Assembly (NCBI GenBank): GCA_030263535.1
Contig: SZPB01000018.1
Coordinates: 1 to 33,802 of the forward strand
Length of the DNA stretch: 33,802 nucleotides
Direction of reading: 5' to 3'
Source of the DNA: Cytophagia bacterium CHB2
GTDB taxonomy: Bacteria > Zhuqueibacterota > Zhuqueibacteria > Zhuqueibacterales > Zhuqueibacteraceae
The stretch's first letter is position 1; every line of letters begins with the position of its first letter. Made by a program: the position numbers and the translations under genes. Shown here piece after piece: positions 3,497 to 33,706 of the stretch. The notes under the pieces are model-generated. The model made no database searches. It saw nothing but the letters and a program-made list of their open reading frames with translations, and was not told where the DNA came from.

Positions 3497-3526
3497 GCTT
3501 GCGCCCTTTCGTGTTGACAAGTGAAA

Positions 3527-10893: not shown

Positions 10894-13298
10894 GCGAATC
10901 CCATCCTTTCCAAATGGCCGTTCACTTTCGCTTCGAGTTCGGCCATGCGGCTGGCCATCTGCGGCAGCGGTGTTGCGTAGCGTTCGGCCAGATCCTTCAC
11001 GCGTTGGGTGAGCGCTTGGCTGATGCGATCCATTTCGCCATGAATGGCAGCCTCCAGCGCGGCGAGCCATTTGTCCTCCACCACCAGCGTCTTGATCTCT
11101 TTTTCAGTAAGCTTGGGATATTGCGCGTAAGCTTTGGCGTCCAACTCGGTCTCGGATTCTTTCAACTTTTTCTTAAGTTCGGATTCTTCATTGGCAAGCT
11201 TCAGCCATTCCTCCAACACCGCCTTCTCTTCCGCTGGCACTTCTTCATTTTCACTTTTCAACTCCTCCAGTCGCGCGATGACATTCGCCTTGCTGATTTT
11301 TTCCAGCTCAGAGAAAGCGCCTTCTTCACCGCCGTGCTCTTCTTCCAACTCATTCATTCGAGCGGTGACGCTTTCCAACTCGGTTTGCAATTGGTTGATC
11401 GCCTCTTGCTCTTTGGCGAAATAGCGGACGACGATGAGTGCTTTGGGAACGAGATCGCAGGCCCAGCCTTTGTCTTTCTCCTTGCCCTTCTTGTCTTTCT
11501 CAATGATGCGATAGGTCTCGGCTTTCCAGCCGTCAGCGGCGATGAGATAGCAATCGTCCTGCATCGTCTCGGCCCAATAATCCATGAGGTGCTGATAAAC
11601 GTCATATTTGTCAATCAGCGGCTTGCCCGCGTAGTGGGCCAAAATATCCTCAGCAAGCGCGGCGATGATTTCCTTCGGATGACAGCCGGCCTTTAAAGCC
11701 TTGAGCGTGCCGGCACTCTTGTTTCGCCAGGCAGCAAAGACGGCATTCATCCTCTCGGTAAAAGCGACGAACTCGGCGTGTTCGTAAATGGTCCGCTTCA
11801 GTTGCGCCAGAGAAATTGACAATTGCGAGTAGTCTTCTCTGAGCGGCTCGAAGAGCGCGGATTTGAGATGAGGCAGGACCGCCCAGTATTTCTCCAGCGC
11901 CTCGATGTCACGGTTCGGCATGCCGCCGCGCAGGTGGCCCGCAATGTCTTGCACGTCCTCGGCCTGCTGGCTGTCGATGTAGCGCGGCAGGTTGAGGTTG
12001 AATTCGTTCTTCTCGATCTCCGCGAAGCTGACCATGCGGGAATATTTTTGAATTTCAAGCTGCCGGTTGAAAACATCAACGATCTTGTGGATGTCCATCG
12101 CGCGCAGGCGGTTCTTGTTGCCATCTTTCATGTAGCCGGCGCTGGCATCGATCATGAAGATACCCTTGCGAGCGCGGGCGTCTTTCTTGTCGATCACCAC
12201 GATGCAAGCGGGAATGCCGGTGCCGTAGAAGAGATTGGCGGGCAGTCCAATGATGCCTTTGATATAACCCTTGCGCACGAGATTGCGGCGGATGTCGGCC
12301 TCGGCATTGCCGCGAAACAGCACGCCGTGCGGCAGAATGCACGCGCCGGTGCCCGTGCTTTTGAGCGAGCGCACGATGTGCAACAAATAGGCGTAATCAC
12401 CCTGCTTGCCCGGCGGCACGCCAAAAGCCTTGAAGCGTTCGTGCGGATCGTTCAGCGGATCGAGACCGGTGCTCCAGCGCTTGTCGCTGAACGGCGGATT
12501 GGCGACAACGTAGTCGAAGGTTTTAAGCGTATCACCGTCTTTGAATTTGGGATCGGTCAACGTGTTGCCCTGCACGATCAGTGCCGTGGGGTTGTTGTGC
12601 AGAATCATATTCATGCGCGCCAAGCCTGAAGTGGCAGCGTCTTTCTCCTGCCCATTCAAAGTGACCGGCGTGCGCGCTTCATCGGCAACCTTGAGCAACA
12701 GCGAGCCGGAGCCGCAAGTAGGGTCATAGACAGTGGTGGCGCTGGTGGTCTTGGCCTCGCGAATGCCAAGAATCTGCGCGATGATGCGGCTCACCTCCGC
12801 GGGCGTGTAGAATTGGCCTTTGCTCTTGCCACTCTCCGTGGCAAAGTGGCGCATGAGGTATTCGTAGGCATCGCCCAGAATATCATCGCCCTCCGCGCGA
12901 TTCTTGGAGAAATCGAGCGCCGGGTTTTCGAAGATGGCGATGAGGTTCGTAAGGCGCTCGATCTTTTCCTTGCCGTCGCCGAGTTTGGTGGCGTCGTTGA
13001 AATCGGGAAAATCGGACTGGGAAATCTGCCTATTGTGCTTGGCCAGCGGTGCGACAATCTTTTTGTTGATGTCATCGCCAATGTTCGTCTTACCCTTGAG
13101 TGCGACCATATCACGAAAGCTCGCGCCTTTGGGGATCGTGATGGGAGCAAAACGGACGCCGGCGTATTTGTCGCTAATGTATTTGATGAAGAGCAGAACG
13201 AGCACGTAATCTTTGTACTGGCTGGCATCCATGCCGCCGCGCAGCTCGTCGCAACTTGCCCAGAGGGAGGAGTAGAGTTCGGATTTTTTGATGGCCAT
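10884..13298 (-). CDS. hsdM: Type I restriction enzyme methyltransferase subunit (HsdM)
   Basis: N6-adenine methyltransferase subunit, 804 residues. The N-terminal helical domain starts at SELYSSLWASCDELRGGMDA. The SAM-binding motif DPTCGSGSLLLKVA lies at 192-205 and the catalytic NPPF at 267-270. FATESGKSKGQFYTPAEVSR (151-170) is a typical HsdM signature. Beyond ~residue 480 the protein continues for 320 residues with a long charged coiled coil (NQLQTELESVTARMNELEEE, then repeated Glu/Lys helices), which ordinary ~500-residue HsdM lacks but the longer HsdM subfamily has. It is the first gene of the operon. No strong ribosome binding site precedes the ATG. It should modify host DNA and form the M2S1 core. 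Confidence 0.96.
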   Translation of the reverse strand: MAIKKSELYSSLWASCDELRGGMDASQYKDYVLVLLFIKYISDKYAGVRFAPITIPKGASFRDMVALKGKTNIGDDINKKIVAPLAKHNRQISQSDFPDFNDATKLGDGKEKIERLTNLIAIFENPALDFSKNRAEGDDILGDAYEYLMRHFATESGKSKGQFYTPAEVSRIIAQILGIREAKTTSATTVYDPTCGSGSLLLKVADEARTPVTLNGQEKDAATSGLARMNMILHNNPTALIVQGNTLTDPKFKDGDTLKTFDYVVANPPFSDKRWSTGLDPLNDPHERFKAFGVPPGKQGDYAYLLHIVRSLKSTGTGACILPHGVLFRGNAEADIRRNLVRKGYIKGIIGLPANLFYGTGIPACIVVIDKKDARARKGIFMIDASAGYMKDGNKNRLRAMDIHKIVDVFNRQLEIQKYSRMVSFAEIEKNEFNLNLPRYIDSQQAEDVQDIAGHLRGGMPNRDIEALEKYWAVLPHLKSALFEPLREDYSQLSISLAQLKRTIYEHAEFVAFTERMNAVFAAWRNKSAGTLKALKAGCHPKEIIAALAEDILAHYAGKPLIDKYDVYQHLMDYWAETMQDDCYLIAADGWKAETYRIIEKDKKGKEKDKGWACDLVPKALIVVRYFAKEQEAINQLQTELESVTARMNELEEEHGGEEGAFSELEKISKANVIARLEELKSENEEVPAEEKAVLEEWLKLANEESELKKKLKESETELDAKAYAQYPKLTEKEIKTLVVEDKWLAALEAAIHGEMDRISQALTQRVKDLAERYATPLPQMASRMAELEAKVNGHLERMGFAWK

Positions 13299-15345: not shown

Positions 15346-16503
15346 TCATTTGGTTAGGCTTTTAATATCACTTGGATCCGCACCGTTTGCTAGAAGCATG
15401 TCCACAATATCCGAATGATTATGAGCTGCTGCATGCCAAAGTGCAGAAACGCCACCCTTATTTTTGAGATTAATATTGGCATGATTATCAATTAATATCT
15501 TGACGGCTTTAGTTTGCCCGTTTCGTGCTGCTCTCATTAAGGCCGTATATCCACCATCTGCACCACTTGCCCTCGTACCATCTGACCTAGCATTAACGTC
15601 TGCCCCGTTATCAATGAGAATTTTCATAATGTCGTCATAACCAAATCGCGCCGCAATCATAAGCGCAGTAACTTCGATAGAGCCTTGTGCTTTCGAGTTT
15701 ACATCGGCACCATTTTCGACCAACATCTTGACAACTTCAACTTGATTTCGGCGTGTGGCAGACATTAGCGCCGTTTGTCCCTCCACATTTGTTTCATTGA
15801 CATCGGCACCTTCCTTTATAAGCTTTCGCACTTCTGCTATATCGCCATTGTATGCAGCAGACATCAAAGGCGTATTCCTAATCTTGACAGGTATTTCACT
15901 CTCACTGTTGGCAAAGGAGTCAGTCAAAGCCTTTTTGAAATCTCCATCTGATATCAAAGGCACATTCCTAATCTTGACAGGTATTTCACTCTCACTATTG
16001 GCAAAGGCGACAGTCAAAGCCTTTTTGAAATCTTCCATGGTGTAATTCTTCTTTTCAAACATGAATTTAATTGCCGCTTTTGCGCCTCCCTCGTCTGTTA
16101 TTCCGATTTGTATTTGATCTCGGCCTAATTTCACTTCATGAATCTCTACTTTTCTACCTTTATGCCAAACTCGCACCTCTCCATCTTTTATTTTCTTGCT
16201 CGCCTCGTCTGCAAAATCTTCTGCTGCTGTGGATTGTGTGTCTCTAAATGCAGATAGCCCTTCACCAACTTTTGCTTTGTAGTATGTCTTCCCATCAGGA
16301 TCAACATATGTCGCATCTTTTCCTCCTATGCCATACTGAATTCTTACAACGTCGATTCTCAACCATTTTTGCTGTCCTTCTAGTTCTTTTGCCATAGCTT
16401 GTATTGTTGTTGTTGAGTCCCCCTGCCCTCCAGCAAAAATTGGCGGAATAGAAAACGCGACGATAAAAAGTATCGAACATTCAAAATAGATAAAGCGTTT
16501 CAT
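15346..16503 (-). CDS. Exported ankyrin-repeat protein with internal tandem duplication
   Basis: A 385-residue protein. The start is ATG 16503, with GGAGG six bases upstream; the first ~24 residues (MKRFIYFECSILFIVAFSIP, then Ala-Gly) are a signal peptide. Residues 30-160 form an unrecognised alpha/beta domain with a KVGEGLSAF and a charged EVRVWHKGRKVEIHE segment. Two nearly identical 30-residue units (FANSESEIPVKIRN) follow. The C-terminal ~180 residues are about five ankyrin repeats (for example GQTALMSATRRNQVEVVKML, then VENGADVN). Ankyrin repeats bind proteins. The export signal suggests a periplasmic or surface location. Partner and role are unknown. Confidence 0.85.
   Translation of the reverse strand: MKRFIYFECSILFIVAFSIPPIFAGGQGDSTTTIQAMAKELEGQQKWLRIDVVRIQYGIGGKDATYVDPDGKTYYKAKVGEGLSAFRDTQSTAAEDFADEASKKIKDGEVRVWHKGRKVEIHEVKLGRDQIQIGITDEGGAKAAIKFMFEKKNYTMEDFKKALTVAFANSESEIPVKIRNVPLISDGDFKKALTDSFANSESEIPVKIRNTPLMSAAYNGDIAEVRKLIKEGADVNETNVEGQTALMSATRRNQVEVVKMLVENGADVNSKAQGSIEVTALMIAARFGYDDIMKILIDNGADVNARSDGTRASGADGGYTALMRAARNGQTKAVKILIDNHANINLKNKGGVSALWHAAAHNHSDIVDMLLANGADPSDIKSLTK
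15863..16036. repeat. 90-bp tandem duplication inside the ankyrin gene
   Basis: Two copies of about 84 bases, at 15863-15946 and 15953-16036, are offset by exactly 90 bases and differ at only a few positions. Each encodes a unit containing DFKKALT-x-x-FANSESEIPV then KIRN. The near identity at the DNA level shows a recent, in-frame duplication of 30 codons. Confidence 0.85.
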
Positions 16504-16687
16504 TTTAAGCCTCCGTATATAAAGACGGTGATCTGTGGTCTTATTAAACCATCGAATTTCCTTTGCATACCGAATCACAGTTTTGGAATTTTAGGGCAAC
16601 CTCAAATCAATGCCTCAAAAATACTTCAAAAACTTCCTCAGCGCGACTCCGGAAGTTCTAATACGAGTTTCAGCGGTTACGGGATTT

Positions 16688-16717: not shown

Positions 16718-16790
16718 AAAAGATTGGGATAGTTTTGTTCCAGCGTAAAACCAATTTGGGCTTGACTGAAATCATCTTCCTTCTTCAGTA
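16718..16790 (-). pseudogene. Out-of-frame remnant of a type IX secretion tail
   Basis: In the frame next to the end of the beta-propeller gene the sequence reads DDFSQAQIGFTLEQNYPN, the exact beginning of a type IX sorting tail. It is then lost: LFWRDATSRS replaces the expected PFNPST. Two lesions are visible. One is a one-base shift in the GAAGAAGGAAGATGA run at about 16770-16785; removing one G restores the join. The other is loss of everything after Y-P-N. The propeller protein therefore probably once carried a full tail. Confidence 0.7.
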
Positions 16791-17458
16791 ACCATCTCAG
16801 ACAGCGGGCGCCGCCACACGCCACCGCCATTAGTTCCCACAAAGAGATGCGAGCCGTTCACGGCGAGAGACAAAACAAAAGTGTTCGTCAAGCCGGTATT
16901 GACGTCAGTCCATTTTGTGCCATTATTGGTGGAAAGAAACACGCCATAAGTTCCCGCAAAGAGATTCGAGCCGTTCACGGCGAGAGACAAAACAGGAGCG
17001 CCCGGCAAGCCGGTATTGACGGCGGTCCAGCTTGTGCCGTTGTTGGTGGAAAGGAACACGCCGCCCTCTTCAGCTCCCGCAAAGAGATGCGAGCCGTTCA
17101 TGGCAAGGGCTCTGATAGGGGTGTCCGTCAAGCCGGTATTGACAGCGGTCCAGCCTGTGCCGATGTTGGTTGAAAGAAACACGCCGCCCTCCTCAGCTCC
17201 CGCAAAGAGATGTGAGCCGTTCAAGGCAAGAGAAAAGACATGAGTATTCGTCAAGCCGGTATTGATGGCTGTCCAGCTTACGCCGTTGTTGATGGAAAGA
17301 AACACGCCACCAAAAGTTCCCGCAAAGAGATTCGAGCCGCTCGCGGCTAAGCACCGAACATCGCCTTCGTTGGGACCATTGGTTTGAATCCACTGCGCCT
17401 GGAGGCTTTGTGCGCCAAGTAGGAGCACGATAGTGAAGAAAAAATACAGGCGTTTCAT
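16772..17458 (-). CDS. Secreted beta-propeller (BNR/sortilin-like repeat) protein, C-terminally damaged
   Basis: A 228-residue protein with a signal peptide (YFFFTIVLLLGAQSLQAQW) and about four and a half copies of a 39-41-residue repeat: S(H/N)LFAG, then GGVFLSTNNGTSWTAVNTGL, then LSLAVNG. These are BNR/Asp-box-like blades, as in photosystem-stability-factor or sortilin-type propellers; a complete propeller would need more blades. The frame ends EMVTEEGR, but the neighbouring frame continues into a sorting-tail remnant, so the natural C-terminus has been lost to a one-base shift. The protein may still be exported but would not be anchored. The ATG at 17458 lacks a ribosome binding site, as is frequent in this bacterial group. 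Confidence 0.75.
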   Translation of the reverse strand: MKRLYFFFTIVLLLGAQSLQAQWIQTNGPNEGDVRCLAASGSNLFAGTFGGVFLSINNGVSWTAINTGLTNTHVFSLALNGSHLFAGAEEGGVFLSTNIGTGWTAVNTGLTDTPIRALAMNGSHLFAGAEEGGVFLSTNNGTSWTAVNTGLPGAPVLSLAVNGSNLFAGTYGVFLSTNNGTKWTDVNTGLTNTFVLSLAVNGSHLFVGTNGGGVWRRPLSEMVTEEGR

Positions 17459-19826: not shown

Positions 19827-20984
19827 ATGAAGCACCACCTGTTGGCAATGCTGGGCTTGCACCCCAAGGTACTGACTGAGACCCTCTACGGTTTGTGTGT
19901 CAAACGAGGGATCGCCATTACAAAGGTGATTGGCATAGCGAGTGGAGTGGCGAGGCAGAAGATCGTTTCCGAGCTGCTGAATCCCGTTACCGGCGAGTTT
20001 TACAAGTTGTGCCGTGAGTATCCGGAGTGTTTTACCGGCATTCAGTTCTCGGCGGAAAGTGTGCGGGTGGCCCGTCTCGGAGACGACGAAATAGCCGACA
20101 TCGCCAACTCACGCCAAAGCCAGGCGTATTTGGATTTGATCATGCGAACGGTGATGGAAATGACCGCGCACAAAGAGGTTTGCCTGCATAGCGTGGTCGC
20201 AGGCGGCAGGCGCACCATGAGCGTCTATCTCGCGATGGTAATGCAGCTTCTCGCGCGGCCGCAGGATCACATGTACCATCTTTTTGTCGAGCCGTGGGAG
20301 GCGGAGACAAATTCGGATTTCTTCTTTCCGCCCCGCCAGTCGAGGCCCATGACTACGTACGGCGGTCTGGCTTTCGATGCAAAGGATGTGCTCGTCGAAC
20401 TCGTGGAAATTCCTTTCCTGCATTTGCGGCCGCACGTGCCCGCGGAGCTGCTGCGCTCGCCCGACTATCAGGACATTCTCGCGTGGGTGCAGCGCGAGGT
20501 GAATGTTGCACCCCAACTCCTGCCACTCAGCATTGACGTAGATCAGCATCGCATTCTGATCGGCGCCATTCCAATCTCCCTGGAACCGGCGGAGTTGGCG
20601 ATCTATTGGTATTTTGCCGAGAAGAGTGCCAAGCGCGAGGAACGTGTTGCTCGGGAGTATTATGAAGGCTATTTCGAAAAGCCAAAGGCCGATGGACATT
20701 TCTCCCGCCAGGCTTCGGCGCGCATGAAGAGTCTGTATGAAACTCTGGTGCAGCGCCATGGCATGCGCAGCCGTTTTCTCAATGCTTTCAACAAGGAAGG
20801 CCGCATTGATTTGGAGCATCTGCGCCCGCACTTCAGCAACCTCAAGCGCAAAATCAGCGAAAAGTTTCTGGACGAAGATTTCAACCGCTGGTACGTCGTC
20901 TCCGCCATCGGTCCGCGCGGGGATACGTGCTATGGCATTCGGTTGGATCGGGAGTTTATTCGACTGCCGGAGGCAAGATTGTGA
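19827..20984 (+). CDS. CARF-domain CRISPR protein of the Cas_NE0113 type with C-terminal winged-helix-like region
   Basis: A 385-residue protein. Residues 1-180 form a CARF (Rossmann-like) domain that binds cyclic oligoadenylate in type III CRISPR systems. It starts HHLLAMLGLHPKVLTETLYG and contains HSVVAGGRRTMSVYLAMVMQ (119-138) followed by DHMYHLFV, the hallmark of the NE0113 family. Members of this family are thought to act as cOA sensors or ring nucleases. The second half (SLEPAELAIYWYFAEKSAKR near 255, then a long helical stretch to FLDEDFNRWY) resembles a winged helix plus helices, suggesting a DNA-binding or regulatory output. No HEPN or other nuclease motif was seen. It precedes the CARF-HEPN gene by about 90 bases. 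Confidence 0.82.
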   Translation: MKHHLLAMLGLHPKVLTETLYGLCVKRGIAITKVIGIASGVARQKIVSELLNPVTGEFYKLCREYPECFTGIQFSAESVRVARLGDDEIADIANSRQSQAYLDLIMRTVMEMTAHKEVCLHSVVAGGRRTMSVYLAMVMQLLARPQDHMYHLFVEPWEAETNSDFFFPPRQSRPMTTYGGLAFDAKDVLVELVEIPFLHLRPHVPAELLRSPDYQDILAWVQREVNVAPQLLPLSIDVDQHRILIGAIPISLEPAELAIYWYFAEKSAKREERVAREYYEGYFEKPKADGHFSRQASARMKSLYETLVQRHGMRSRFLNAFNKEGRIDLEHLRPHFSNLKRKISEKFLDEDFNRWYVVSAIGPRGDTCYGIRLDREFIRLPEARL

Positions 20985-21075
20985 CAAGGTTGGGAGGGTA
21001 GCGGCTAATCTCTGCTCTTCCGATTTTTTACAGGATTTCAAATTGTGCGCGTTCATTCAATTGATGGAGAAAAAC

Positions 21076-22686
21076 ATGCCGTGCGACGTCGATAGTTTGA
21101 AAAGCCAAACGGAGAATTATTGGCGCAATTTACAAGATGCCAATAGCGAGAGGGCCCGTGACGGAATTGTTCAAAGCGTTTATCTTGAGAGCTTGCTCCG
21201 CGATGAAATTGCCTGCGCAAAGGAGCGCGCCCTCACCCAAGAGGGCGTTTGGCCGCAAGAACAGGCCGAAGTGCTCGTGCTTTTAGTCGGCCACTCCATC
21301 GAGCCGCTCTTACAAACCGTTTGCGCTTATGAACCAAAAGAAATCGTTTTGGTTTTGAGCCAAAAATACAACGCGCCTAACGACGGGATGCTCTTTGCGG
21401 AAGATCATGTACTGCCTTGTCTGCGCGCGCTGAAAGAGTTGGAATCGCCGCTCCTAAAGCGGCATTTTGCAGAGCTTCGCTGTGTTTGTCCGAAACCAGG
21501 GCAAGGCAGCAGGCCCGGCGATGTTTTTCAGCTACTCTTTGAAGCTTTGAGCGAAGACGTCAAGAAGAAAAAAAATATCATCATTGATATCACCGGCGGC
21601 AAGAAGAGCATGGTTGCCGGCGCCTATTTCTTTGCGACCTATACCAACGTCAAAATTTCTTATGTCGATTTTGAAGACTATCATGAAAGGAAACGGCGGC
21701 CTTACGGCTTCTCGTGCCAGATCGGCCTGCTTCCTAATCCCTATGAAATTTTCGGCCTGCGCGATTGGGAACAGGTCAAGAGCCTTTACAAACGCTTCTT
21801 CTTTGATGAAGCCGTCAAGAAACTGTGCATCATCGCCAAAGACATGTCGTCGGAGTATTTTAAACCTGAACAAATCACCGCAGTCGAAACGTTGATCAAA
21901 ATCATGCGCGTTTATCACGCATGGAGCGTGGGCGATTACGCGCAAGCGAAAAAGTTGAGCGACGAAGTAAAAGTCTTGCAGCCACTCGCCTCGGTTGAAG
22001 CATTGCACGATAAGTGGCCGGAGAATATTGACTCTGAGCCCAGGCTGCGACTAAGCGATTGGGATTTTTATTCCAATCACAAGCTCATTCTGCAATACGC
22101 GCTCGATGAAAGCGCCAAAGTGGACCGCATTGTGAAACTCAAGGAAGATTACCGCTCCGGTCTGTTGCGCGCTGCGGGTTTGAACGAGGTGTTGCTCAAA
22201 GCGCGGCTAGCTTTTTTGTGCGAAAGAAAGATGCTCTTGCTTTATAGAAAGGATCAAAAGCTGGCCGATGCCGACGCTCAAAACACCGTCGTCGATGGGC
22301 AACAAGTTAAAGCTTGGTTTGCGGAGGAGATACTGCGAGCAAAGAACAAGGAGAAAGTCCCTGCAAAAGCGGCACTGAAAGCAGAAAAGACCGAGAATGC
22401 CTTGCCATATATGAGCCAGTCACCAGAGTACCGTGCGATACTAACAAAAGATCGCGACCTCAGAAATGGAGTCATCCACTTCGTCATTCCAGTTTCAAAG
22501 CAGATCGCATACGAAGCCGTGGATGCAATGCACAAAAACGTGCAAGATTTCGAGCAAGTATGGGTGCAATCAGTTGACCCAAAACACCAAATAAAGCCGG
22601 ATACTTTGCCGACCTGGGAAGAATTGTGCGGATGGTGCAATATCGATTTTCTGCTGCATCCAAAGAAACAGGAGAAGCAATCATGA
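21076..22686 (+). CDS. CARF-HEPN ribonuclease, Csm6/Cas02710-like
   Basis: A 536-residue ancillary nuclease of type III CRISPR systems. The CARF half has VLVLLVGHSIEPLLQTVCAY and the ligand-loop motif DITGGKKSMVAGAYFF at Asp171, characteristic of the TIGR02710/Csm6-like group. The helical C-terminal half ends in a HEPN domain with the catalytic R-x4-H: Arg463 to His468 in DLRNGVIHFV. On binding cyclic oligoadenylate made by Cas10, such proteins degrade RNA non-specifically. The start is ATG 21076, six bases after GGAG; ATG 21064 is the alternative. The stop overlaps the cas10 start (ATGA), so sensor and signal producer are translationally coupled. Confidence 0.88.
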   Translation: MPCDVDSLKSQTENYWRNLQDANSERARDGIVQSVYLESLLRDEIACAKERALTQEGVWPQEQAEVLVLLVGHSIEPLLQTVCAYEPKEIVLVLSQKYNAPNDGMLFAEDHVLPCLRALKELESPLLKRHFAELRCVCPKPGQGSRPGDVFQLLFEALSEDVKKKKNIIIDITGGKKSMVAGAYFFATYTNVKISYVDFEDYHERKRRPYGFSCQIGLLPNPYEIFGLRDWEQVKSLYKRFFFDEAVKKLCIIAKDMSSEYFKPEQITAVETLIKIMRVYHAWSVGDYAQAKKLSDEVKVLQPLASVEALHDKWPENIDSEPRLRLSDWDFYSNHKLILQYALDESAKVDRIVKLKEDYRSGLLRAAGLNEVLLKARLAFLCERKMLLLYRKDQKLADADAQNTVVDGQQVKAWFAEEILRAKNKEKVPAKAALKAEKTENALPYMSQSPEYRAILTKDRDLRNGVIHFVIPVSKQIAYEAVDAMHKNVQDFEQVWVQSVDPKHQIKPDTLPTWEELCGWCNIDFLLHPKKQEKQS

Positions 22687-24302
22687 AACGTTATCTCGTG
22701 GCGGCCGACGCCGACCAAATTCAAAACCTGCTGTTTCGATCCTCGCACTTGCGCGAGGTCATCGGCGGCAGCATGATGCTGTCACGGTTTTGCAAGGAAG
22801 AGACGAACCCGGCGTTGGCGAAAATTATCACGGACTTTCACGGCAACGTCATTATCAACGACGGCGGCAGTTTCCGCCTAACCCTCGGCTCCGACAAAGA
22901 GGCGAAAGACTTTCTCGAATGCCTCGCAGACTTGTTCCGTGAAGAGACCGGCGGTACGCTAACCGTTGCCGGACCGATTGAGTATAACGACGGCGAGTTT
23001 CGAAGTAAGAACGAAACGCTCCAACTCGAATTGCTCAATGCAAAATACTACCGCACAGGCGCAGAGGCCGAGCCGCAATTGCCCGTCAGCGCATTTTGCA
23101 CGTCATGCGGAATTGGTTTGGCGGCGCAATATGCTAGACCGGCATGGGAGCTTCCCGGCGAAGAAAAGACCTATTTGTGTAATCACTGCTACGACAAGGC
23201 AGAAGACAAACTGCTCAAAGCGCATTTCTTCTATCAAGACTACCGTGATGCAATTAAGAAGAAACACGCCGCCGACTTCAATAAGTTTTTGGAGAATCCC
23301 AAAGACCCGGCCGAGCTTATCGGCAGCCTCGATGCAACACAATATGTCGGCTATGTTTTGGCGGATGTCAACGGCATGGGCAGGCATTTCAACCGACGTG
23401 AATCACCGGAAGACCTCACTAAGTTGTCCAATGATTTGACGGCCGCGCTCTGGGCAAGTCTAGCAGCGCCGATCCCGGATTTGATCAAACGCTTGCGGGA
23501 ACGCAAGAGTGGAGAACGTGAACTCATTGAGAAGTTGGAAAACCGCATGCCCATCGTTCCTCTCATCCTCGGCGGCGACGACGTGCTCGCACTCGTGCCT
23601 GCGCGTTATGCTTTAGATATTGGCTCCCGTTTCGGTGAAGAATTTGAAAAGCACATGAACGGAATCACCATCGGCGTGGCGGTGATCATTTGCCAAAAAC
23701 ATTATCCCTACACTTTGGCATATGAAAGAGGGCACAAATTGCTGGAGCAAGCGAAAAAGCACGGCAAGAGTCTTGGCACGCAAAAGCTGTCGGCGATCAA
23801 CTTCGAAGTGATTCTCGGCAACGAGCTGAAAGTTTCGGCGGAGGATGAAGTGGGTAAAGAAAAAGAGTATCACTCTTCGCTGAAGCCTTATTGGATCGGC
23901 GCCAAAGCAAATGCGGAGTCATCCGAGTCTTCGCATGCCGGAATTCATTTTGAGCGCATCCTTCATCATCGCCTCGCACTCAAAAACATTCCACAAAAGC
24001 GCTTGCACGAGCTGCGCCGTTTCTTTGACCCTCGGCGATTAAACGAGTTGCACAAAGACAAAGAACGAGAAGAGTGGAACAAAGGCTTCGAAGATTTTCT
24101 TCATAGGATAAAACCTGAAAGCTGGGCCAGTGCGCTGGAAAGCGCCATAAAAGAGTTGGGACCCTGGCGCAACATCAAGCGATGGCCAAAAAAGGATTTC
24201 GATCCCGCGACCGGCCTGCTCGATTTGATCGAAGCATGGGATTATGCTTACAAACTGGATAAGCCGGACAAAGACTACCAACCGAAGGAGTCACGAGCAT
24301 GA
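22683..24302 (+). CDS. cas10: Cas10-type subunit without HD domain, GGDD cyclase intact
   Basis: Large-subunit signature protein of type III CRISPR complexes, 539 residues. It begins directly with a palm-like domain (LVAADADQIQNLLFRSSHLR, then EVIGGSMMLSRF) of the Cas10/Cmr2 type, so the usual N-terminal HD nuclease is absent. A zinc ribbon follows (Cys139/Cys142 and Cys166/Cys169). The second palm has the catalytic residues LADVNGMGRHF (Asp228) and LILGGDDVLAL (GGDD at 297-300). The protein should convert ATP to cyclic oligoadenylate but not cleave DNA. The C-terminal helices (RFFDPRRLNELHKDKEREEW) complete it. The start has an AGGAGA ribosome binding site. The end overlaps the next gene by four bases. 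Confidence 0.92.
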   Translation: MKRYLVAADADQIQNLLFRSSHLREVIGGSMMLSRFCKEETNPALAKIITDFHGNVIINDGGSFRLTLGSDKEAKDFLECLADLFREETGGTLTVAGPIEYNDGEFRSKNETLQLELLNAKYYRTGAEAEPQLPVSAFCTSCGIGLAAQYARPAWELPGEEKTYLCNHCYDKAEDKLLKAHFFYQDYRDAIKKKHAADFNKFLENPKDPAELIGSLDATQYVGYVLADVNGMGRHFNRRESPEDLTKLSNDLTAALWASLAAPIPDLIKRLRERKSGERELIEKLENRMPIVPLILGGDDVLALVPARYALDIGSRFGEEFEKHMNGITIGVAVIICQKHYPYTLAYERGHKLLEQAKKHGKSLGTQKLSAINFEVILGNELKVSAEDEVGKEKEYHSSLKPYWIGAKANAESSESSHAGIHFERILHHRLALKNIPQKRLHELRRFFDPRRLNELHKDKEREEWNKGFEDFLHRIKPESWASALESAIKELGPWRNIKRWPKKDFDPATGLLDLIEAWDYAYKLDKPDKDYQPKESRA

Positions 24303-26800
24303 CATTGACATTCAAACTCGAACTGAAATCCGATTATCACGTCGGCGCCGGCCATCGCAAAGGCACGGAAATCGACTCCGCTTTGCTGCGTGAACACGAC
24401 GGACGCCCGGCATTGCGTGGCTCGTTGCTCGGTCAAATGTTGCGCGATTCCGCGCGAGAGTTATTGACGACTCCTGTGATGGCAAAGCATGGATATGGAA
24501 TCTGTAAAGCTTCGGGCGACCGAGAAGAGCCGGAGTATTGCGGCCAATGGCAAAATAATGAAGGCGTTTGCCCGATTTGCCGCGTCTTCGGCACACCGCG
24601 CGCGCCGCGACGCTGGCAATTTTCTTCCGCATGGTTGCAGGGAATGCAAGCCGGCGCAACAGCAGAGAATCATAGCAACGATTGGGGCGCGCAACCCGTC
24701 ATGCGCGTGCGCGTCAGCCCAGAAACTCGCCGCGCCGAAGCGAATAAATTGTTTAGCGAGGAGATCGGCGACAGTCGCTTGGTCTTTCGCTTCGAAGCAA
24801 CGTGGCAGGGCAACGGCAAGCCTGATGAAAAAGAAATCGCACTGTTAGCTGCCGCAGCGGCGAACATGCGGCATCTCGGCAAAAGCCGAAGACGAGGCCG
24901 CGGGGTGTGCCGAGTGCAATTGATCAAGGTTGACAACCAAGAGCCGCCTGAAAATGTTGACTGGCTCAAGCTGTTCAAGCAAGAATTGGTTGACAAGAAA
25001 TGGCAGCCCGAACCGCACGAGCAAAACAAATCGGCACCGGCGTTGAGCGCGGAATCGCCTGCGCCGGCTTGGCAACCGGTGCGCGTGCGTGTCGTTGTGC
25101 ATTTGGACGAGCCCGTTTTGGTGGCGCACCGTTCTTCGGCTGGAAATCAATTCGAAGGCCTCGACACGCTTCCCGGAAACATTTTGCTCGGTGCATTGGC
25201 CGCGCGCGCCGTGCGCCATCTCGATTTAGGCAAAACTGACGATTATCAAAACTTCGTCGGCCTCTTTCGTCGCGGTTGGGCGCGGTTTTCTTTTTTGGCA
25301 TTGGCTCATGAAAAACACGACAAGCTCTACCCCGCCTTTGCGTCGCCTCTGGATATCTTTCGCTGCAAGCGACAATCTCCGCATGACCCGCAAAGAAAAT
25401 TTTACGACCGTGCCTTTGCGCTAACGGAAGCGGAGAAAGAAAAAATCATTTGCGATCTCTGCGCCAAACAATACGATGAGGAGGACGCCGAGGTCGAAAA
25501 ACTCGAATGCCTTCAAACTTTGCGCGCCGGCTTTATGCAGGAACTCGCTTTTGAGCAACGCGAAGAGATGCACGTGCAAATCAACCCCGCAACGCAGCGC
25601 GCCGAAGACGGCAAGCTCTTCGAATATGTTTGCTTGCAAGCCGGCCAATATCTCTGCGGCGAAATCATTTGCCGCAATCAAAAGGTTTGGGAAGCTCTGC
25701 GCCAATGCGCCGAATTGATTGAAAGCATGGAAAGCAAACAGCAAGCGATTCCGTTGCGCTTGGGCAAAGCCACGCGCAGAGGTTATGGGCGCGTCTCGGC
25801 GTTTTTCTTTGTTGAAAAAGACGACAAGGGGCTTTATCAAAACACTCTGAGCCAACGCCTGCCCGATCCCAAGCAGCCGTTCACGCTTTTGCTCACCACC
25901 GACACGATCATTCGCGACAAGTGGGGCCGCTTTCCGACACGCTTTGAAGAAGATTGGCTCGCTGAAGCGTTGGGCTTGGAAAAGGGAGACCTCAAATTGA
26001 TTCGCGGCTTTGCCAAAACGCGCGAGATTGACGGATTTCATAACTACCTCGGCCTGCCGCGCTGGCGCGATCGCGCTTTTGTTGCGGGTTCGGTTGCGGG
26101 CATTCAAATCGTTGGCGGCAAATATACCAATGATGAGATTGTGAAAAAGCTGGAGCGTCTTGAATGGGAAGGCATCGGCCTGCGCCGTCACGAAGGCTTC
26201 GGCCAAATCGTGGTCAATCATCCGGTGTATGAAGCCATTAAAAATCCACACAGCGGAGCCCGAATTGATATCGAGTGGAAGAGCAAGCCGCAAAGAGTCA
26301 AGCTTGAAAACCAAATTGAAAACGAGCGCAAGTTTCGGCAAGATTGGGAAGGGATTCTTGCACAACTTGGCGACAAGCATCTCGACAAGCATCTCAAGGA
26401 GGGCCAACGTTGGCGGCAATTCGAGTTCAAAGAATTCGCGCCGGTCGCGCGGCTGCTGCGTGCGCGAAGCGATGCCGCGATCAGTGATCTTATAAAAGAA
26501 TTGCAGGCGTTGGGGGATTTCAAACTCGAACAACCCGAGGGCGAGAAAGAGCTATACGTGGAGAAAAAGCTGAACTACCGGATCAAGCTCGGAGAAAACC
26601 AAACACCCGCGCCGCGCGAGACCAAAAAGTTCTTCGAGAAAGAAGACAGGGGCAAGCCCGGCATCGAATTGATCAAAGAGGCTTTTGCCAAGTTGCAAAC
26701 GACTTCGAATGACGCGAAACTGCGCGCCATCGGCGTGGAAATGCTCGCCTTGATCATCGCCGAGGCCGCCAATCGCGCCATCAAAGAAGGGAGAAAATGA
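24299..26800 (+). CDS. Fused Cas7-Cas5(Csx10)-Cas11-like subunit of a type III-D variant complex
   Basis: An 833-residue multidomain RAMP protein. Residues 1-215 are a Csm3-like Cas7: HVGAGHRKGTEIDSALL with Asp26 at the position of the RNA-cleaving aspartate, RGSLLGQMLRDSA, zinc cysteines ending in CPICRVFGTP, and a Gly/Arg-rich KSRRRGRGVCRV strand. Residues ~258-640 are Csx10/Cas5: LVAHRSSAGNQFEGLDTLPG, NILLGALAARAV, CDLC (~385), and a glycine-rich loop LGKATRRGYGRVSAFF. The last ~170 residues are mainly helical and fit a Cas11 small subunit. The same order is known from the Cas7-5-11 fusion of the III-Dv complex. It probably caps the crRNA 5' end and cuts target RNA. Confidence 0.85.
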   Translation: MTLTFKLELKSDYHVGAGHRKGTEIDSALLREHDGRPALRGSLLGQMLRDSARELLTTPVMAKHGYGICKASGDREEPEYCGQWQNNEGVCPICRVFGTPRAPRRWQFSSAWLQGMQAGATAENHSNDWGAQPVMRVRVSPETRRAEANKLFSEEIGDSRLVFRFEATWQGNGKPDEKEIALLAAAAANMRHLGKSRRRGRGVCRVQLIKVDNQEPPENVDWLKLFKQELVDKKWQPEPHEQNKSAPALSAESPAPAWQPVRVRVVVHLDEPVLVAHRSSAGNQFEGLDTLPGNILLGALAARAVRHLDLGKTDDYQNFVGLFRRGWARFSFLALAHEKHDKLYPAFASPLDIFRCKRQSPHDPQRKFYDRAFALTEAEKEKIICDLCAKQYDEEDAEVEKLECLQTLRAGFMQELAFEQREEMHVQINPATQRAEDGKLFEYVCLQAGQYLCGEIICRNQKVWEALRQCAELIESMESKQQAIPLRLGKATRRGYGRVSAFFFVEKDDKGLYQNTLSQRLPDPKQPFTLLLTTDTIIRDKWGRFPTRFEEDWLAEALGLEKGDLKLIRGFAKTREIDGFHNYLGLPRWRDRAFVAGSVAGIQIVGGKYTNDEIVKKLERLEWEGIGLRRHEGFGQIVVNHPVYEAIKNPHSGARIDIEWKSKPQRVKLENQIENERKFRQDWEGILAQLGDKHLDKHLKEGQRWRQFEFKEFAPVARLLRARSDAAISDLIKELQALGDFKLEQPEGEKELYVEKKLNYRIKLGENQTPAPRETKKFFEKEDRGKPGIELIKEAFAKLQTTSNDAKLRAIGVEMLALIIAEAANRAIKEGRK

Positions 26801-28579: not shown

Positions 28580-29224
28580 ATGAGCGAATTAGGAAAGCTT
28601 GAATGGAGCAAAGATAAATTTGCGGTTTGGGGTGGAAAGCTGAAACCGACTGAATGGCTCGACTTTCTCGAAGCATGGAAATGGAAAGACGACAAGCGCT
28701 GGCGCATATTGGAATTCGTCAGCGACTTCAAAATCGAGGACGATAAACCGCAGATTATTTCTGAAAAGGATATTCCGCTTTTGGAGCGCGCCGAGTTTTT
28801 CGGCAAAAGCGGCCACCTGAGCACGCGCCGCGACGGTGAAACGGTTTATTGGCACTTCGTCGGCGAACGTGACATCAAAGTGCCGGATGGCTATGATGAC
28901 GTGAAGAACAATTATTGGACGGCGCATCCCGAAGATAAATTCCGCCGCTCTGAAAAGCACATGCTCCTCTGGGGCGAGCGCATCAAAGATGGGGACACAT
29001 GGACGAACGATTGGTTTGATGACCGCGTCGGTTGGGCGAAGTTGAGCTATCCTCATGTTGAAGAGCCAAAAAATGGCAATGCGGAAAATCAACCCCCTGC
29101 TGCCAAAGAACAAAATCAGCGCGTGCAAGCGAACTACTGGCAATTCACCCGCGCCGGACAGGTGGCATTTGTATGGCTTACGGGTCTGAGCGAATATCAA
29201 CCGCAAGAGGAACAAAATGGCTAA
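28580..29224 (+). CDS. csx19: Csx19-like type III-D CRISPR protein
   Basis: A 214-residue protein with the TIGR03984/Csx19 pattern: ERAEFFGKSGHLSTRRDGET, then VYWHFVGE, then a KHMLLWGERI strand followed by WFDDRVGWAKLSYP. Csx19 is a III-D-specific subunit; in the known III-Dv complex it sits on the backbone near the double Cas7. The start has GGAGG six bases upstream and follows the previous stop after a single base. A Glu/Gln-rich disordered linker (about 155-178) precedes a last strand QANYWQFTRAGQVAFVWLTG. The end overlaps the next gene by eight bases. Confidence 0.8.
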   Translation: MSELGKLEWSKDKFAVWGGKLKPTEWLDFLEAWKWKDDKRWRILEFVSDFKIEDDKPQIISEKDIPLLERAEFFGKSGHLSTRRDGETVYWHFVGERDIKVPDGYDDVKNNYWTAHPEDKFRRSEKHMLLWGERIKDGDTWTNDWFDDRVGWAKLSYPHVEEPKNGNAENQPPAAKEQNQRVQANYWQFTRAGQVAFVWLTGLSEYQPQEEQNG

Positions 29225-31634
29225 AGGCGAAATCGTTGCTTGGAAAGAAGATCGAGGCTTCGGCTTTATTCAACCCGAAAGCACAAACACGCAGGAAGCG
29301 CAGTTGTTTTTTCATATCAATGATGCGAGAGCCGTGCCGCGTGAGCAATTGCGCAAAGGTACTCAGGTGGAATATTCCGTCGGTCCAGGCAAAAAGAGCA
29401 AAACTGCTGCTAAAAATGTGCGCATTGCGGGAATGCCTGCTCCGGCACAGCCTCAGCAGCCGAGAGAAAAGAAAGCAGAAAGCCGCCAAGTTCAGCACTC
29501 TTCAAAAGGCTATCGCTTTCTCAATCCCTACAACTTTGCGCGTTGGCTCGAAAGTCCGCAGTCGATTCTAAGTCATCCCGACACACGTTATCTCAACAGG
29601 CAACCGCCTCCGCCGCATGACCGGTGGGTTGGGAAGTCCGGTGAGATCGAGTGCGAATTGACGGCATTAACGCCGATTTTTATATCGGATTCTCTCGCCA
29701 AATTCGCCAATGAAACCGACAAAAAAGAACTGCACAAATCTTTTGAATTTTTCAATGTCCCCAAAGGCGACGACTCTGAGCCGATCCTGCCAGCATCGAG
29801 CTTGCGCGGCATGGTTCGCAATATTTTCGAGGCAGCAACGAACTCGTGTTTCGCCAGTTTCGACTACGGACAACGGCTCAGTTATCGCCTCGCACCTAGT
29901 GAGGCTTTGAAGCTCGTTCCGGCGCGGGTGCTGGCCCCCAGAAATAAAGGCGAAGTTTGGCGACTGCAGCTTATGCTGGGCTCGGCAACGCTTACGATTG
30001 GCGAAAACCCACGCCGTGGACCATATGCTGCCACCGTGCGGCAGTACCCGCGTGCTCCACAAGCTGGCAAAGGTGAAGTTCCATCTGCGCATCATGAAAT
30101 TGTAGATATCAATGACTACAAGCATGGCAGTGAATGCTATGCTTTAGCTAAAATACCACGGCAAGGCCCCCTTGTCTGGAATGTGACGCATTTGGCAGAT
30201 TCGTATGAAGAACTCGAACCCTTGCAGGATGATCGTTCGGAGATTTTAAAAGGCTATCTTTGCATCACCAATCAAAACATCGATCTCAAAGTTAAAGAGC
30301 GGTTCTTCATCTCCGAGTACAAAGACAGCCCGACGCTCAAGGAGATTGAATTGCCAGACAATGTGTGCGTGGAATACGAAGAGTTGATCCGTGATTATCA
30401 ATTGCGGCATCGTGAAACCGTTGAGACGTGGCGCAAGCAGCATTATGACCCATCAAAACCTCGCAAGATAAAAAAGACGCAGGGGCGCGAAGTCTGGGAA
30501 CCCGCTTTTAGCCGGTTCATTTTGGAATCTACCTACAAACTCAAGGGCAACGAGTTGGTTTATGCCTACCTGGAAAAAACTGCGAAAGGCATGAAAGTGC
30601 GATTCATTGCGCCGGTTTCCATTCCTCGTGTGGGATACCAAAACAAAACATACTTAAGACTTCCGAGCCACCATTGGAAATGCGAAAGCCATGACAAGCT
30701 TTGCCCTGCTTGTCGCACGTTTGGTTGGGTTGAAGGCCGACCAGGAGTCGAGAAAAATGAACGGGAGAGTGATCGGAACAAGATTGTGGCTTATCAAGGC
30801 CGAGTGCAATTTACCCACGCGACGCTGGATGAATCTCAGCAACAAAAGCCTATGGACGAAATCACCCTGGCAATTCTCTCTTCACCCAAGCCCACGACCT
30901 CGCGCTTCTATTTAATGCCTGTGAAGGCGAAGCCTGAATCCAAACAAGGTGCGCCCGACGAGCAAGTGGGATACGATGCGCCGGACATGATCATTCGAGG
31001 CCGCAAATTCTTTCGACATCATCCAACTGCGAATAGCAACGAGTATGAGCGCGTTCGCGGCATTCCCGACGATCAAAACCGTACGATCAATGGGGCTCTT
31101 CCTGTAGGAACGAAATTTCGTTTCAAAGTTAGATTTGAAAATCTCGCAGCGGTTGAGCTTGGCGCGTTGCTCTGGGCGCTGGAGATGGAATCAAACATGT
31201 GTCACCGTTTGGGATTTGCCAAGCCTTTAGGCTTCGGCAGCGTCCGCATCAACGTCACCGGTATTCGGGAATTGAACCTAAAACGTTACGACTCGTTGGA
31301 CGGTGAAGGTTGGCAAGCTCTAACTGAGCAAAAAGCGGAGCTCATCCGCCGATTCAAGGCGGCAGTGGCGCACGCCTATTATCGTAAAGATGAAAACGAG
31401 TTCGCGAAGCTGGAGAATATCGCTGATTTGAGCAAGATGCTGAATACGTCTCAGCCGCAGCTCCCGATTCACTATCCGCGACCGCAGGAAGTCCCTGATG
31501 CCGAGGGAAAGAATTATGAGTGGTTCATGGGCAACAAGAGGCCGAAAAGAGGACCAGGCTATCTTCTGCCGCTTGCGGTTGATGATACGGCGGGATTTCC
31601 ATTGATGGAAAAGTTTGGAAACCTGAAAGAATAG
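29217..31634 (+). CDS. Cold-shock-domain fused to a large TIGR03986-type Cas7 (Cas7-insertion) subunit
   Basis: An 805-residue protein. Residues 1-70 are a CspA-like cold-shock domain: GEIVAWKEDRGFGFIQPEST (RNP1 = RGFGFIQ), QLFFHINDA (RNP2 = LFFHI), then KGTQVEYSVG. A charged linker (Pro/Gln/Lys-rich, 71-92) joins it to a RAMP domain starting GYRFLNPYNFARWLE, the PYNF start of the TIGR03986 family. This continues with LTALTPIFISDS, LPASSLRGMVRNIFEA, a long insertion (about 240-480), a CPACRTFGWVEG zinc site, and the closing MCHRLGFAKPLGFGSVRINV loop. In the III-Dv layout this is the Cas7-insertion subunit. The cold-shock domain should add single-stranded RNA binding. An AGAGGAAC ribosome binding site precedes the ATG. 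Confidence 0.88.
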   Translation: MAKGEIVAWKEDRGFGFIQPESTNTQEAQLFFHINDARAVPREQLRKGTQVEYSVGPGKKSKTAAKNVRIAGMPAPAQPQQPREKKAESRQVQHSSKGYRFLNPYNFARWLESPQSILSHPDTRYLNRQPPPPHDRWVGKSGEIECELTALTPIFISDSLAKFANETDKKELHKSFEFFNVPKGDDSEPILPASSLRGMVRNIFEAATNSCFASFDYGQRLSYRLAPSEALKLVPARVLAPRNKGEVWRLQLMLGSATLTIGENPRRGPYAATVRQYPRAPQAGKGEVPSAHHEIVDINDYKHGSECYALAKIPRQGPLVWNVTHLADSYEELEPLQDDRSEILKGYLCITNQNIDLKVKERFFISEYKDSPTLKEIELPDNVCVEYEELIRDYQLRHRETVETWRKQHYDPSKPRKIKKTQGREVWEPAFSRFILESTYKLKGNELVYAYLEKTAKGMKVRFIAPVSIPRVGYQNKTYLRLPSHHWKCESHDKLCPACRTFGWVEGRPGVEKNERESDRNKIVAYQGRVQFTHATLDESQQQKPMDEITLAILSSPKPTTSRFYLMPVKAKPESKQGAPDEQVGYDAPDMIIRGRKFFRHHPTANSNEYERVRGIPDDQNRTINGALPVGTKFRFKVRFENLAAVELGALLWALEMESNMCHRLGFAKPLGFGSVRINVTGIRELNLKRYDSLDGEGWQALTEQKAELIRRFKAAVAHAYYRKDENEFAKLENIADLSKMLNTSQPQLPIHYPRPQEVPDAEGKNYEWFMGNKRPKRGPGYLLPLAVDDTAGFPLMEKFGNLKE

Positions 31635-31661
31635 ACGCCACAATCTTCAGGGAGCGTGAAT

Positions 31662-33044
31662 ATGCTAGCGGTAGAACCTTGCAAGCTGGTTGAGTTGGGA
31701 ACACTCATCTCGAACCTTCGTGCCATTGAAGCTGACGTCAGTGTAAAAAAGGCTCGAGGGCAGCTCGACTCCGTTTTCGATTTGCTCGGTCTCTTTGGTC
31801 TGCAAAGAACGATCAACAAAATTGACGGTATCGCTCAAGATATACGAAATCAATTTATAGATATTGAGAGCACAAACGGTAACGGCAAAGAGGAGACCGA
31901 TACTAGCAATTACGCCATCGGCATGGGTTTAGCCAATGATTTCGAAGCATTTGCGAATCAAGTTGAATCAGAACTGAAGCGTGAATGTGAAGATCGTGAA
32001 GAGCTTCGAATTTTCATTCCGGAAATGAAGCTGCATGAACTGAAAAGACTAATCAATACGGAAAAAGTCGTAAGTGAAGAATTTGTCGAAGGCGCGTTTA
32101 ATTGGCTGCCAAAAGTGGTGAAACACGACTTTAAAGATGCGGCCTGCTGTTTGTCTTATGGCGTGAGCACAGGTGCCGCTAGCTTAATGCTCCGTGCAAC
32201 AGAGGCTTCTTTACGGCACTTTTATCGTTGCTACTTGAAGACAGAGCCTTTCAACAAATCTCATTGGCAAAATCTGAAAAACAATTCGGATAGACAGGAC
32301 CAACTACTTCCAGAAACCCTTAATTGGTATAAAATGACGAAAGGGTTAGACGGGGTATTTCTGAATGAACATGATCCTGATTTATATCATGAACTTGAAA
32401 TATTGCGTGAACATTATCGCAATCCTACACAACATGCAGCACGAAGATTTGACAAAAGGGAGGCTGAGATGTTGTGGAAGAACTGCTGCAGTGCCGTCAA
32501 TCGAATTCATAATCGAATTCAAATAGAAGATGTAGTTTTGAAGGTTTGCATGCCATGGCCTTGCGATCTTGACACCTTGTTCGCTATTCATCTCATCAAT
32601 GACAACGCGGGCCTAATTGGCGAGTGGGAATTTGTTGGTCTCAACGACAAAAGCGATGACCATCAGGGAGGTTATGTGGTCAATTGCGCGAGGGGACAAT
32701 TCGACCGCAGTCAACTCAAAGAACCCAAATCCGCCAGTTGGATGCTTATAAAGCATTTCTGTTTACCTGAAGGCGGCGAATGGCAGAAACTTCTAAATCA
32801 TGTGAATCAGACCGTCGTTCTTTACAAAAAAAATCCCAATGTCGATCCCCCAAAAGGGCTTTGGGGCTATGTTCATTGGTACATGAAGAATATGGTTGAG
32901 GAAATATCTAAAATAGAAACCATTGAAAAATTCTTGCCATTGATTGAATCCTATCTTGGCGACAAAAACCCAACTGATTTAGCGATTCTAAAGGACTCCA
33001 TTCTTAAACTGAAATCGCCACTACCTCTACCTGAATGGCTGTAG
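31662..33044 (+). CDS. HEPN-like protein of unknown family directly behind the CRISPR operon
   Basis: A 460-residue protein of no family I can name. The start is ATG 31662 with GGGAG seven bases upstream (GTG 31656 is possible), 27 bases after the cas7 stop. Residues ~1-120 are charged helices. Residues ~150-280 look like a HEPN domain: LSYGVSTGAASLMLRATEAS, LRHFYRCYL, then LREHYRNPTQHAARRFDKRE with Arg253-Asn-x3-His258, the RNase motif. The last ~180 residues form a separate domain with PWPCDLDTLFAIHLIND, EWEFVGLND, GGYVVNCARGQFDRSQ and a final helical segment. This faintly recalls MYG1/DHH-type hydrolases, but the metal ligands are not evident. Spacing and strand suggest an ancillary CRISPR nuclease. 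Confidence 0.6.
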   Translation: MLAVEPCKLVELGTLISNLRAIEADVSVKKARGQLDSVFDLLGLFGLQRTINKIDGIAQDIRNQFIDIESTNGNGKEETDTSNYAIGMGLANDFEAFANQVESELKRECEDREELRIFIPEMKLHELKRLINTEKVVSEEFVEGAFNWLPKVVKHDFKDAACCLSYGVSTGAASLMLRATEASLRHFYRCYLKTEPFNKSHWQNLKNNSDRQDQLLPETLNWYKMTKGLDGVFLNEHDPDLYHELEILREHYRNPTQHAARRFDKREAEMLWKNCCSAVNRIHNRIQIEDVVLKVCMPWPCDLDTLFAIHLINDNAGLIGEWEFVGLNDKSDDHQGGYVVNCARGQFDRSQLKEPKSASWMLIKHFCLPEGGEWQKLLNHVNQTVVLYKKNPNVDPPKGLWGYVHWYMKNMVEEISKIETIEKFLPLIESYLGDKNPTDLAILKDSILKLKSPLPLPEWL

Positions 33045-33085
33045 AAAATTTTTTAATCTTCGTTGAAGGAAGACAGGAGCCTCCC

Positions 33086-33706
33086 ATGTCCCAAGACTTC
33101 ACCCCCGCCGAGCTCAAATCGCGGATTACCAAGCTCCACGATCCGCGCACGCCGCAGGAAGAGCTCAAGCGTATCGTCATGACGCTCGCACACCTCGATA
33201 ATGCCGAGGCATTGCAGGCGCTGGAGGAATTTCGTCAGTCGTCGCGCGCGGCGGAGGTCGAATGGATCGAGCAGGCGATTGACGAATCCACGTACTTCGT
33301 GTTGGAGCCAAAGAACGAGCGCGAGGAGAAAGATTACCTTCGCGTCGAGTTGTGGCAGGAATACGAAGAAGAGTTGTACGACAAAATGGCTCAGCGCGAG
33401 GCTGCGGAAGTCCACAAACAGCAGCTCGAAGTCGAGAAAGAATTCCTCGAAGAAGCCATGGCTGCTGCGCCGAATGAGAGCATCCGTTTGCAAGTCATAG
33501 CGCGCCACAGCGGCATTGACACTCTCATTCTCATGGCCGTGAACGATCGCATGAATCTCGAAGACGAAATTGTCGGCTTGGAATTCATCCTCGCGCAAAT
33601 TGAAAAGGCCGTCGAGTCGCCGCTCTATCGCACGCACGGCAAGCGCGAGATCGGTGTACATATTCATCGCGATTGCGAGACCTGGCTCAAAAAACGTAAG
33701 GAATAG
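33086..33706 (+). CDS. Charged helical protein of unknown function
   Basis: A 206-residue protein from ATG 33086, six bases after AGGAG. An in-frame ATG at 33035 would overlap the previous gene and lacks a site. The first part reads FTPAELKSRITKLHDPRTPQ, then LAHLDNAEALQALEEFRQSS, a HEAT-like helical pair. A very acidic coiled-coil follows (LWQEYEEELYDKMAQREAAE, VHKQQLEVEKEFLEEAM), then amphipathic helices and a basic end (RDCETWLKKRKE). No catalytic motif was seen. The Glu/Lys content and predicted helices suggest an adaptor or scaffold. It lies in the same direction as the CRISPR genes and directly before a membrane-anchored protein. Confidence 0.6.
   Translation: MSQDFTPAELKSRITKLHDPRTPQEELKRIVMTLAHLDNAEALQALEEFRQSSRAAEVEWIEQAIDESTYFVLEPKNEREEKDYLRVELWQEYEEELYDKMAQREAAEVHKQQLEVEKEFLEEAMAAAPNESIRLQVIARHSGIDTLILMAVNDRMNLEDEIVGLEFILAQIEKAVESPLYRTHGKREIGVHIHRDCETWLKKRKE

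Follow-up and report, generated by a model that had tools for sequence, protein, structure and literature searches.

In the window, the 33,802-nucleotide stretch of DNA analysed here, a type III-Dv CRISPR operon encodes a Cas7-insertion subunit in which a cold-shock domain (CSD) is fused to the N-terminus of a TIGR03986 Cas7 core. We give an even chance to the reading that this CSD is a tethered, exchangeable module that binds single-stranded RNA on the Cas7 subunit presenting the crRNA seed, helping the complex to capture its target.

The operon runs in the order Cas10, Cas7-Cas5 fusion with a putative Cas11 part, Cas7-2x, Csx19 and Cas7-insertion (Table 1), and both this order and the component sizes match those of Synechocystis. 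The best solved sequence match of the fusion protein is chain E of 8s9t (phmmer E=7e-50 over residues 99-795), which also ranks first in Foldseek (E=1.4e-44, TM 0.76). The operon is thus type III-Dv, as the preliminary description had taken it to be, and the fusion protein is its Cas7-insertion subunit. The HD dipeptide is absent from the whole Cas10 sequence, a direct-repeat search found no CRISPR-like array in the window, and an IMG/VR scan found no viral relatives. Just downstream of the fusion lies a 462-residue gene (31656-33044) for which Pfam, NCBIfam and PADLOC gave no match, whose relatives adjoin TIGR03986 in four loci (L036, L038, L042 and L044) and whose product contains RNPTQH, by eye like the HEPN Rx4-6H motif. 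A 223-residue gene (33035-33703) follows at the window's end, and a fragment of a relative is seen near the same operon in locus L007 (E=5e-12). Elsewhere, type I restriction-modification genes (HsdR, a Schlafen-AlbA protein, HsdS and HsdM; 5223-13298, minus strand) make up a defence-rich region with an integrase (2450-3520), and a repeat protein built of 117-123-nt tandem units (16772-17458, minus strand) adjoins an ankyrin-repeat protein (15346-16578). The same genome also holds a second, shorter TIGR03986 (G000:C308:3899-4912, minus strand, L002/L003), a 526-residue frame without the N-terminal domain.

Table 1. Features of the III-Dv operon and of the CSD-TIGR03986 gene, all on the plus strand.
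Feature	Position	Strand	Basis or remark
CARF protein, NE0113/CARF5 family	19827..20984	+	family matches
CARF-HEPN accessory, Csx1/Csm6-like	20737..22686	+	PADLOC E=1e-114
Cas10, single GGDD motif (residue 316)	22626..24302	+	family matches and motif
Cas7-Cas5 fusion	24299..26800	+	putative C-terminal Cas11 part, from length and Synechocystis counterpart
Cas7-2x, two Cas7 domains, 593 aa	26797..28578	+	family matches
csx19	28580..29224	+	PADLOC Csx19 E=7e-41; stop codon 29222-29224
Shine-Dalgarno-like AGAGGA	29206..29211	+	5 nt before ATG; sequence
CSD-TIGR03986 fusion, III-Dv Cas7-insertion subunit	29217..31634	+	805 aa; one ORF, read from ATG at 29217 to stop codon ending at 31634
Cold-shock domain, residues 4-69	29226..29423	+	PF00313; five-strand OB barrel in AlphaFold2 model
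RNP1 motif RGFGFIQ, residues 13-19	29253..29273	+	F15, F17 align with CspB F15, F17
RNP2 motif LFFHI, residues 30-34	29304..29318	+	F31, H33 align with CspB F27, H29
Flexible linker, residues 76-99	29442..29513	+	pLDDT <50 at residues 77-96
TIGR03986 Cas7 core, residues 104-743	29526..31445	+	PYNF at start; best solved match 8s9t chain E

Two elements had been proposed from the first reading of this gene, a CSD in the first 70 residues with RGFGFIQ and LFFHI motifs and, after it, a TIGR03986 RAMP protein starting at PYNF, and both are confirmed. The Pfam CSD profile matches with E=4.6e-9 (36.5 bits against a gathering threshold of 27), and the NCBIfam TIGR03986 profile with E=5.8e-115 (385.9 bits against a curated cut-off of 161.35), PYNF being residues 104-107. 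The glycine-rich loop claimed for the end of the protein is present as KPLGFGS, but at residues 669-675 it is internal rather than terminal. Given the Shine-Dalgarno-like sequence before the ATG and the overlap of the gene start with the csx19 stop codon, the CSD is translated within this gene. Among other cas ORFs of III-Dv loci our CSD profile found no match.

An AlphaFold2 model of the protein, made from a 31-row alignment, has an overall pLDDT of 84.6 and a pTM of 0.78. In it residues 2-70 form the five-strand OB barrel that had been expected of this region, with strands at residues 2-10, 15-20, 30-33, 50-57 and 63-70 at pLDDT of about 90, followed by disorder at residues 77-96 and then by the Cas7 body. 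The CSD is therefore predicted to be joined to the Cas7 body by a disordered tether some 25-30 residues long. Its residues were compared with those by which CspB contacts nucleic acid, assigned from general knowledge of the cold-shock family, among which W8 is part of the usual binding platform. The window CSD keeps F15, F17, F31 (CspB F27) and H33 (H29), as well as R13 and K60, while the positions of CspB F30 and F38 are Ile and Arg, and that of W8 is Ala with Trp at the adjacent next position. Across 16 Cas-linked CSDs (12 TIGR03986 N-termini, three from Cmr6 and one C-terminal) the positions of F17 and F27 are aromatic in all 16 and that of F15 in 14, and H29 is His in 12, while W8 is replaced in every CSD that aligns there, by Ala in the window and mostly by Lys or Arg elsewhere. 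By this alignment the window CSD keeps the main RNA-contact aromatics.

The occurrence of the fusion was examined in one scan of 84,980 species, which gave 79 loci, supplemented by single-phylum surveys, and the relatives were sorted by the stretch that precedes PYNF into five kinds (C, G, S, B and R), with a few having nothing there. A canonical CSD (kind C) stands at the N-terminus of at least 12 TIGR03986 proteins (the window, L007, L034, L041, L045, L046, L049, L052, L053, L098, L106 and L121), drawn from the window's own phylum, Chloroflexota, Bacillota, Gemmatimonadota, Latescibacterota and Poribacteria. Eleven of these 12 match the Pfam CSD, nine of them belonging to a set of 31 proteins in which the nine bearers were identified with our own CSD profile; the CSD of L007, a second genome of the window's genus, was found by phmmer and by that profile. 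With 11 further proteins from separate assemblies, the CSD-TIGR03986 fusion is neither chance nor an assembly join. In kind G the CSD is eroded, GDDGKxYxFN replacing the RNP motifs, and is linked by profile to kind C (hhalign 94%). Kind S, the Synechocystis type, is found in Cyanobacteria, Planctomycetes, Acidobacteria and others, and kind B is a short basic tail with a net charge of +5 to +11 in 10 proteins. In kind R, seen in four genomes of Poribacteria, the III-Dv TIGR03986 protein begins with an RRM_1 domain (L066/L122, L123, L124 and L126; 80.7, 85.0, 65.8 and 49.8 bits against a Pfam gathering threshold of 20.7, E 3e-13 to 3e-24), one of the four N-termini being cut by a contig end, and another Poribacterium and two Latescibacterota carry a CSD at this same N-terminus. 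Several relatives are without any folded N-terminal domain. The CSD is thus real, as first described, but it is one of several alternatives at its site rather than an unusual feature peculiar to this locus. Two TIGR03986 genes lie in tandem or near each other within one III-Dv locus in L035, L036, L037, L038, L039 and L055, the second having a basic N-terminal tail wherever it is readable.

A quick tree of 77 TIGR03986 cores separates two large groups, FLNPYNF and FHNPYNF. Kind S is clustered on it; kind C occurs in both groups, scattered and no more clustered than shuffled labels. This scatter indicates that the canonical CSD has often been gained, lost or eroded, the counts of the kinds fitting gain and loss alike. 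The Poribacteria/Latescibacterota clade holds both CSD and RRM, and the core-tree neighbours L048 and L049 exemplify erosion or loss of the CSD between close relatives.

The Synechocystis Cas7-insertion itself begins with an 'uncharacterized' N-terminal domain of 112 residues that is missing from the cryo-EM map and likely flexible (PMC11026444). In 8s9t chain E our profile of the S domain hits this region at residues 1-92 (E=7e-15). In its AlphaFold2 model (pLDDT 85) the elements follow the order b1-b2-b3-helix-b4-b5, as in a CSD, and the structures listed by VIA-align are mostly CSDs, the best being 6y6e with Z 7.2 and an rmsd of 1.6 over 58 residues, where a Z of at least 8 is taken as clear and a lower one can mean a shared arrangement only. 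Foldseek matches are weak (E about 0.1). By hhalign the S domain is linked to the eroded kind G at 84% and to canonical kind C at 9%; as this gives no direct sequence link to canonical CSDs, the connection runs through the intermediate class and through structure. The S domain is likely to be an OB fold, judging from the model, and possibly descends from a CSD. The comparison thereby proposes an identity for an uncharacterized piece of a solved III-Dv complex, a small OB-like and possibly CSD-derived domain.

CSDs also recur elsewhere in type III systems. In III-B complexes Cmr6 occupies the 3' end of the crRNA. The PDB contains Cmr6 with an N-terminal CSD, as chain H of 9arw and in three other entries. 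Of all PDB sequences, that of 9arw scores highest with the window CSD, at 44.5 bits, whereas no free cold-shock protein exceeds 30.7. An N-terminal CSD is also seen on the Cmr6 of two among 30 Bacillota loci (L151, Pfam E=4.7e-11; L140, weak at 0.017). At the other end of the polypeptide, a C-terminal CSD is present on another TIGR03986 subfamily (L009:1111-3465, minus strand, E=9.6e-15; L023:1432-4122, plus strand, E=3.5e-6, barely above cut-off). In the L009 operon, which is of type III-D, cas7 and cas5 are two distinct genes; both loci come from the window's own order.

In Synechocystis, the 3' end of the crRNA is held by Cas7-insertion, which leaves six bases exposed to serve as a seed; mismatches in this seed largely prevent binding (PMC11026444). 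As the same subunit presents this seed, a tethered RNA binder would be well placed to catch unpaired target. The aromatic RNP face of the CSD would loosely bind unpaired target RNA next to the exposed crRNA 3' seed, and, since it would keep hold of the strand and open up weak structure, would allow the target to pair faster with the seed. The CSD would be one form of an exchangeable module, of which the eroded CSD, the Synechocystis-type OB-like domain, the basic tail and the RRM would be alternatives. Indeed, that relatives have a CSD, an eroded CSD, a basic tail or another RNA-binding domain at this position suggests that the III-Dv complex uses the Cas7-insertion N-terminus to hold loose RNA. 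The strongest argument is the occurrence at one site of two unrelated RNA-binding folds as well as of basic tails, which points to RNA binding as the selected property. The target-facing position first proposed for the CSD is plausible by analogy with Synechocystis, but a mobile arm is more probable than a fixed target-facing side, since in that complex the N-terminal 112 residues are unmapped and the structure bound to a 60-nt target is reported to be almost unchanged (PMC11026444), giving no sign of a fixed contact. Also counting against an RNA arm are the replacement of W8, part of the usual platform, the Ile and Arg at the F30 and F38 positions, the several relatives that lack a folded N-terminal domain, and the scatter of the canonical CSD on the tree. 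More widely, and more tentatively, a mobile arm that binds single-stranded RNA may be a common feature of type III complexes, attached to the Cas7-family subunit at the crRNA 3' seed end, made from assorted parts (CSD, eroded OB, RRM or basic tail) and setting the rate of target search or its tolerance of structure. Little is understood of the way in which type III complexes locate a short complementary segment within a long, folded RNA, and if this is true an RNA-binding arm near the seed would offer a tangible element that can be removed to probe that search.

Against this reading of the CSD as an aid to target capture, the same domain could be a dispensable, weakly selected attachment that adds a general affinity for RNA, or solubility, and hardly affects interference. 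Its scattered presence and its erosion or loss between the close relatives L048 and L049 would fit, as would the Synechocystis complex, solved and active with the region disordered (PMC11026444). We consider this unlikely, as the RNP aromatics persist even in diverged proteins, an RRM or basic tails substitute for the CSD where plain loss would be expected, and the CSD turns up again on Cmr6 and, at the C-terminal end, on another TIGR03986 protein of type III-D. CSDs generally bind single-stranded RNA, and the one here might instead hold or chaperone the crRNA, at its 3' end or its repeat-derived part, during loading and assembly and then stand idle. Such guide handling would suit a subunit that grips the crRNA 3' end and an arm that is unseen in the finished complex and so probably mobile, but in the solved complex it is the insertion domain and not the N-terminal domain that holds the 3' end (PMC11026444). 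Several relatives, moreover, have only a short basic tail, and we regard a role in guide handling as distinctly unlikely. Free cold-shock proteins act in antitermination on cellular RNA, and coupling of the complex to nascent transcripts, ribosome-bound mRNA or its own mRNA might be considered for the fused domain too, its nearest NCBIfam single-domain matches being CspE/CspA/CspD-type proteins with antiterminators among them. These matches fall so far under their curated cut-offs (25.7 against 120 bits) that only the fold is shared, and coupling of this kind is very improbable. That a csp gene was joined to a cas gene in a draft genome of 681 contigs, or that the CSD is a separate upstream gene, can practically be dismissed, the start being in-frame with its Shine-Dalgarno sequence inside the csx19 overlap and the fusion recurring in another genome of the same genus as well as in many further assemblies.

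The preliminary description was also aware of no account of this fusion in the III-Dv complex. In the open-access literature, outside which most subscription papers and preprints lie, we encountered no account of a III-Dv Cas7-insertion bearing a CSD or RRM, no paper pairing cold shock domain and CRISPR with Cmr6 or Cas7, and no mention of 9ARW, 9Z7Q, 9WXH or 9WXI; the terms cold shock, CSD and OB-fold are absent from the main text of the 2025 CRISPR classification. Within that literature the fusion appears to be new for III-Dv, but the existence of an N-terminal domain had already been noted, though without identification (PMC11026444), and a CSD on a type III Cas7-family protein has a precedent in the CSD-Cmr6 of 9arw.

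Among known systems the closest is the Cas7-insertion of the Synechocystis PCC 6803 III-Dv complex (8s9t chain E; PMC11026444), the same subunit with the same operon order and core fold and likewise an N-terminal domain of similar length that is probably mobile, although the sequence of that domain does not identify it as a CSD, and it belongs to a second family with a predicted OB barrel. The CSD-Cmr6 of 9arw is likewise a Cas7-family subunit of a type III complex and has a CSD at its N-terminus, but it is part of a Cmr complex, with a Cmr6 core rather than TIGR03986. CspA/CspB-type cold-shock proteins have the fold and both RNP motifs of the window CSD, but unlike the Cas-linked CSDs they are free 70-residue proteins with W8. 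In III-E Cas7-11 (gRAMP) the Cas7 segment that bears the insertion is homologous (NCBIfam NF041225, E=2.5e-52, a match below the cut-off), but this effector is a single protein of other architecture. CoCoNuT type IV restriction systems (PMC11090510) likewise fuse CSD-like OB folds, predicted to bind RNA, to defence proteins, but are GTPase-based and stand outside CRISPR.
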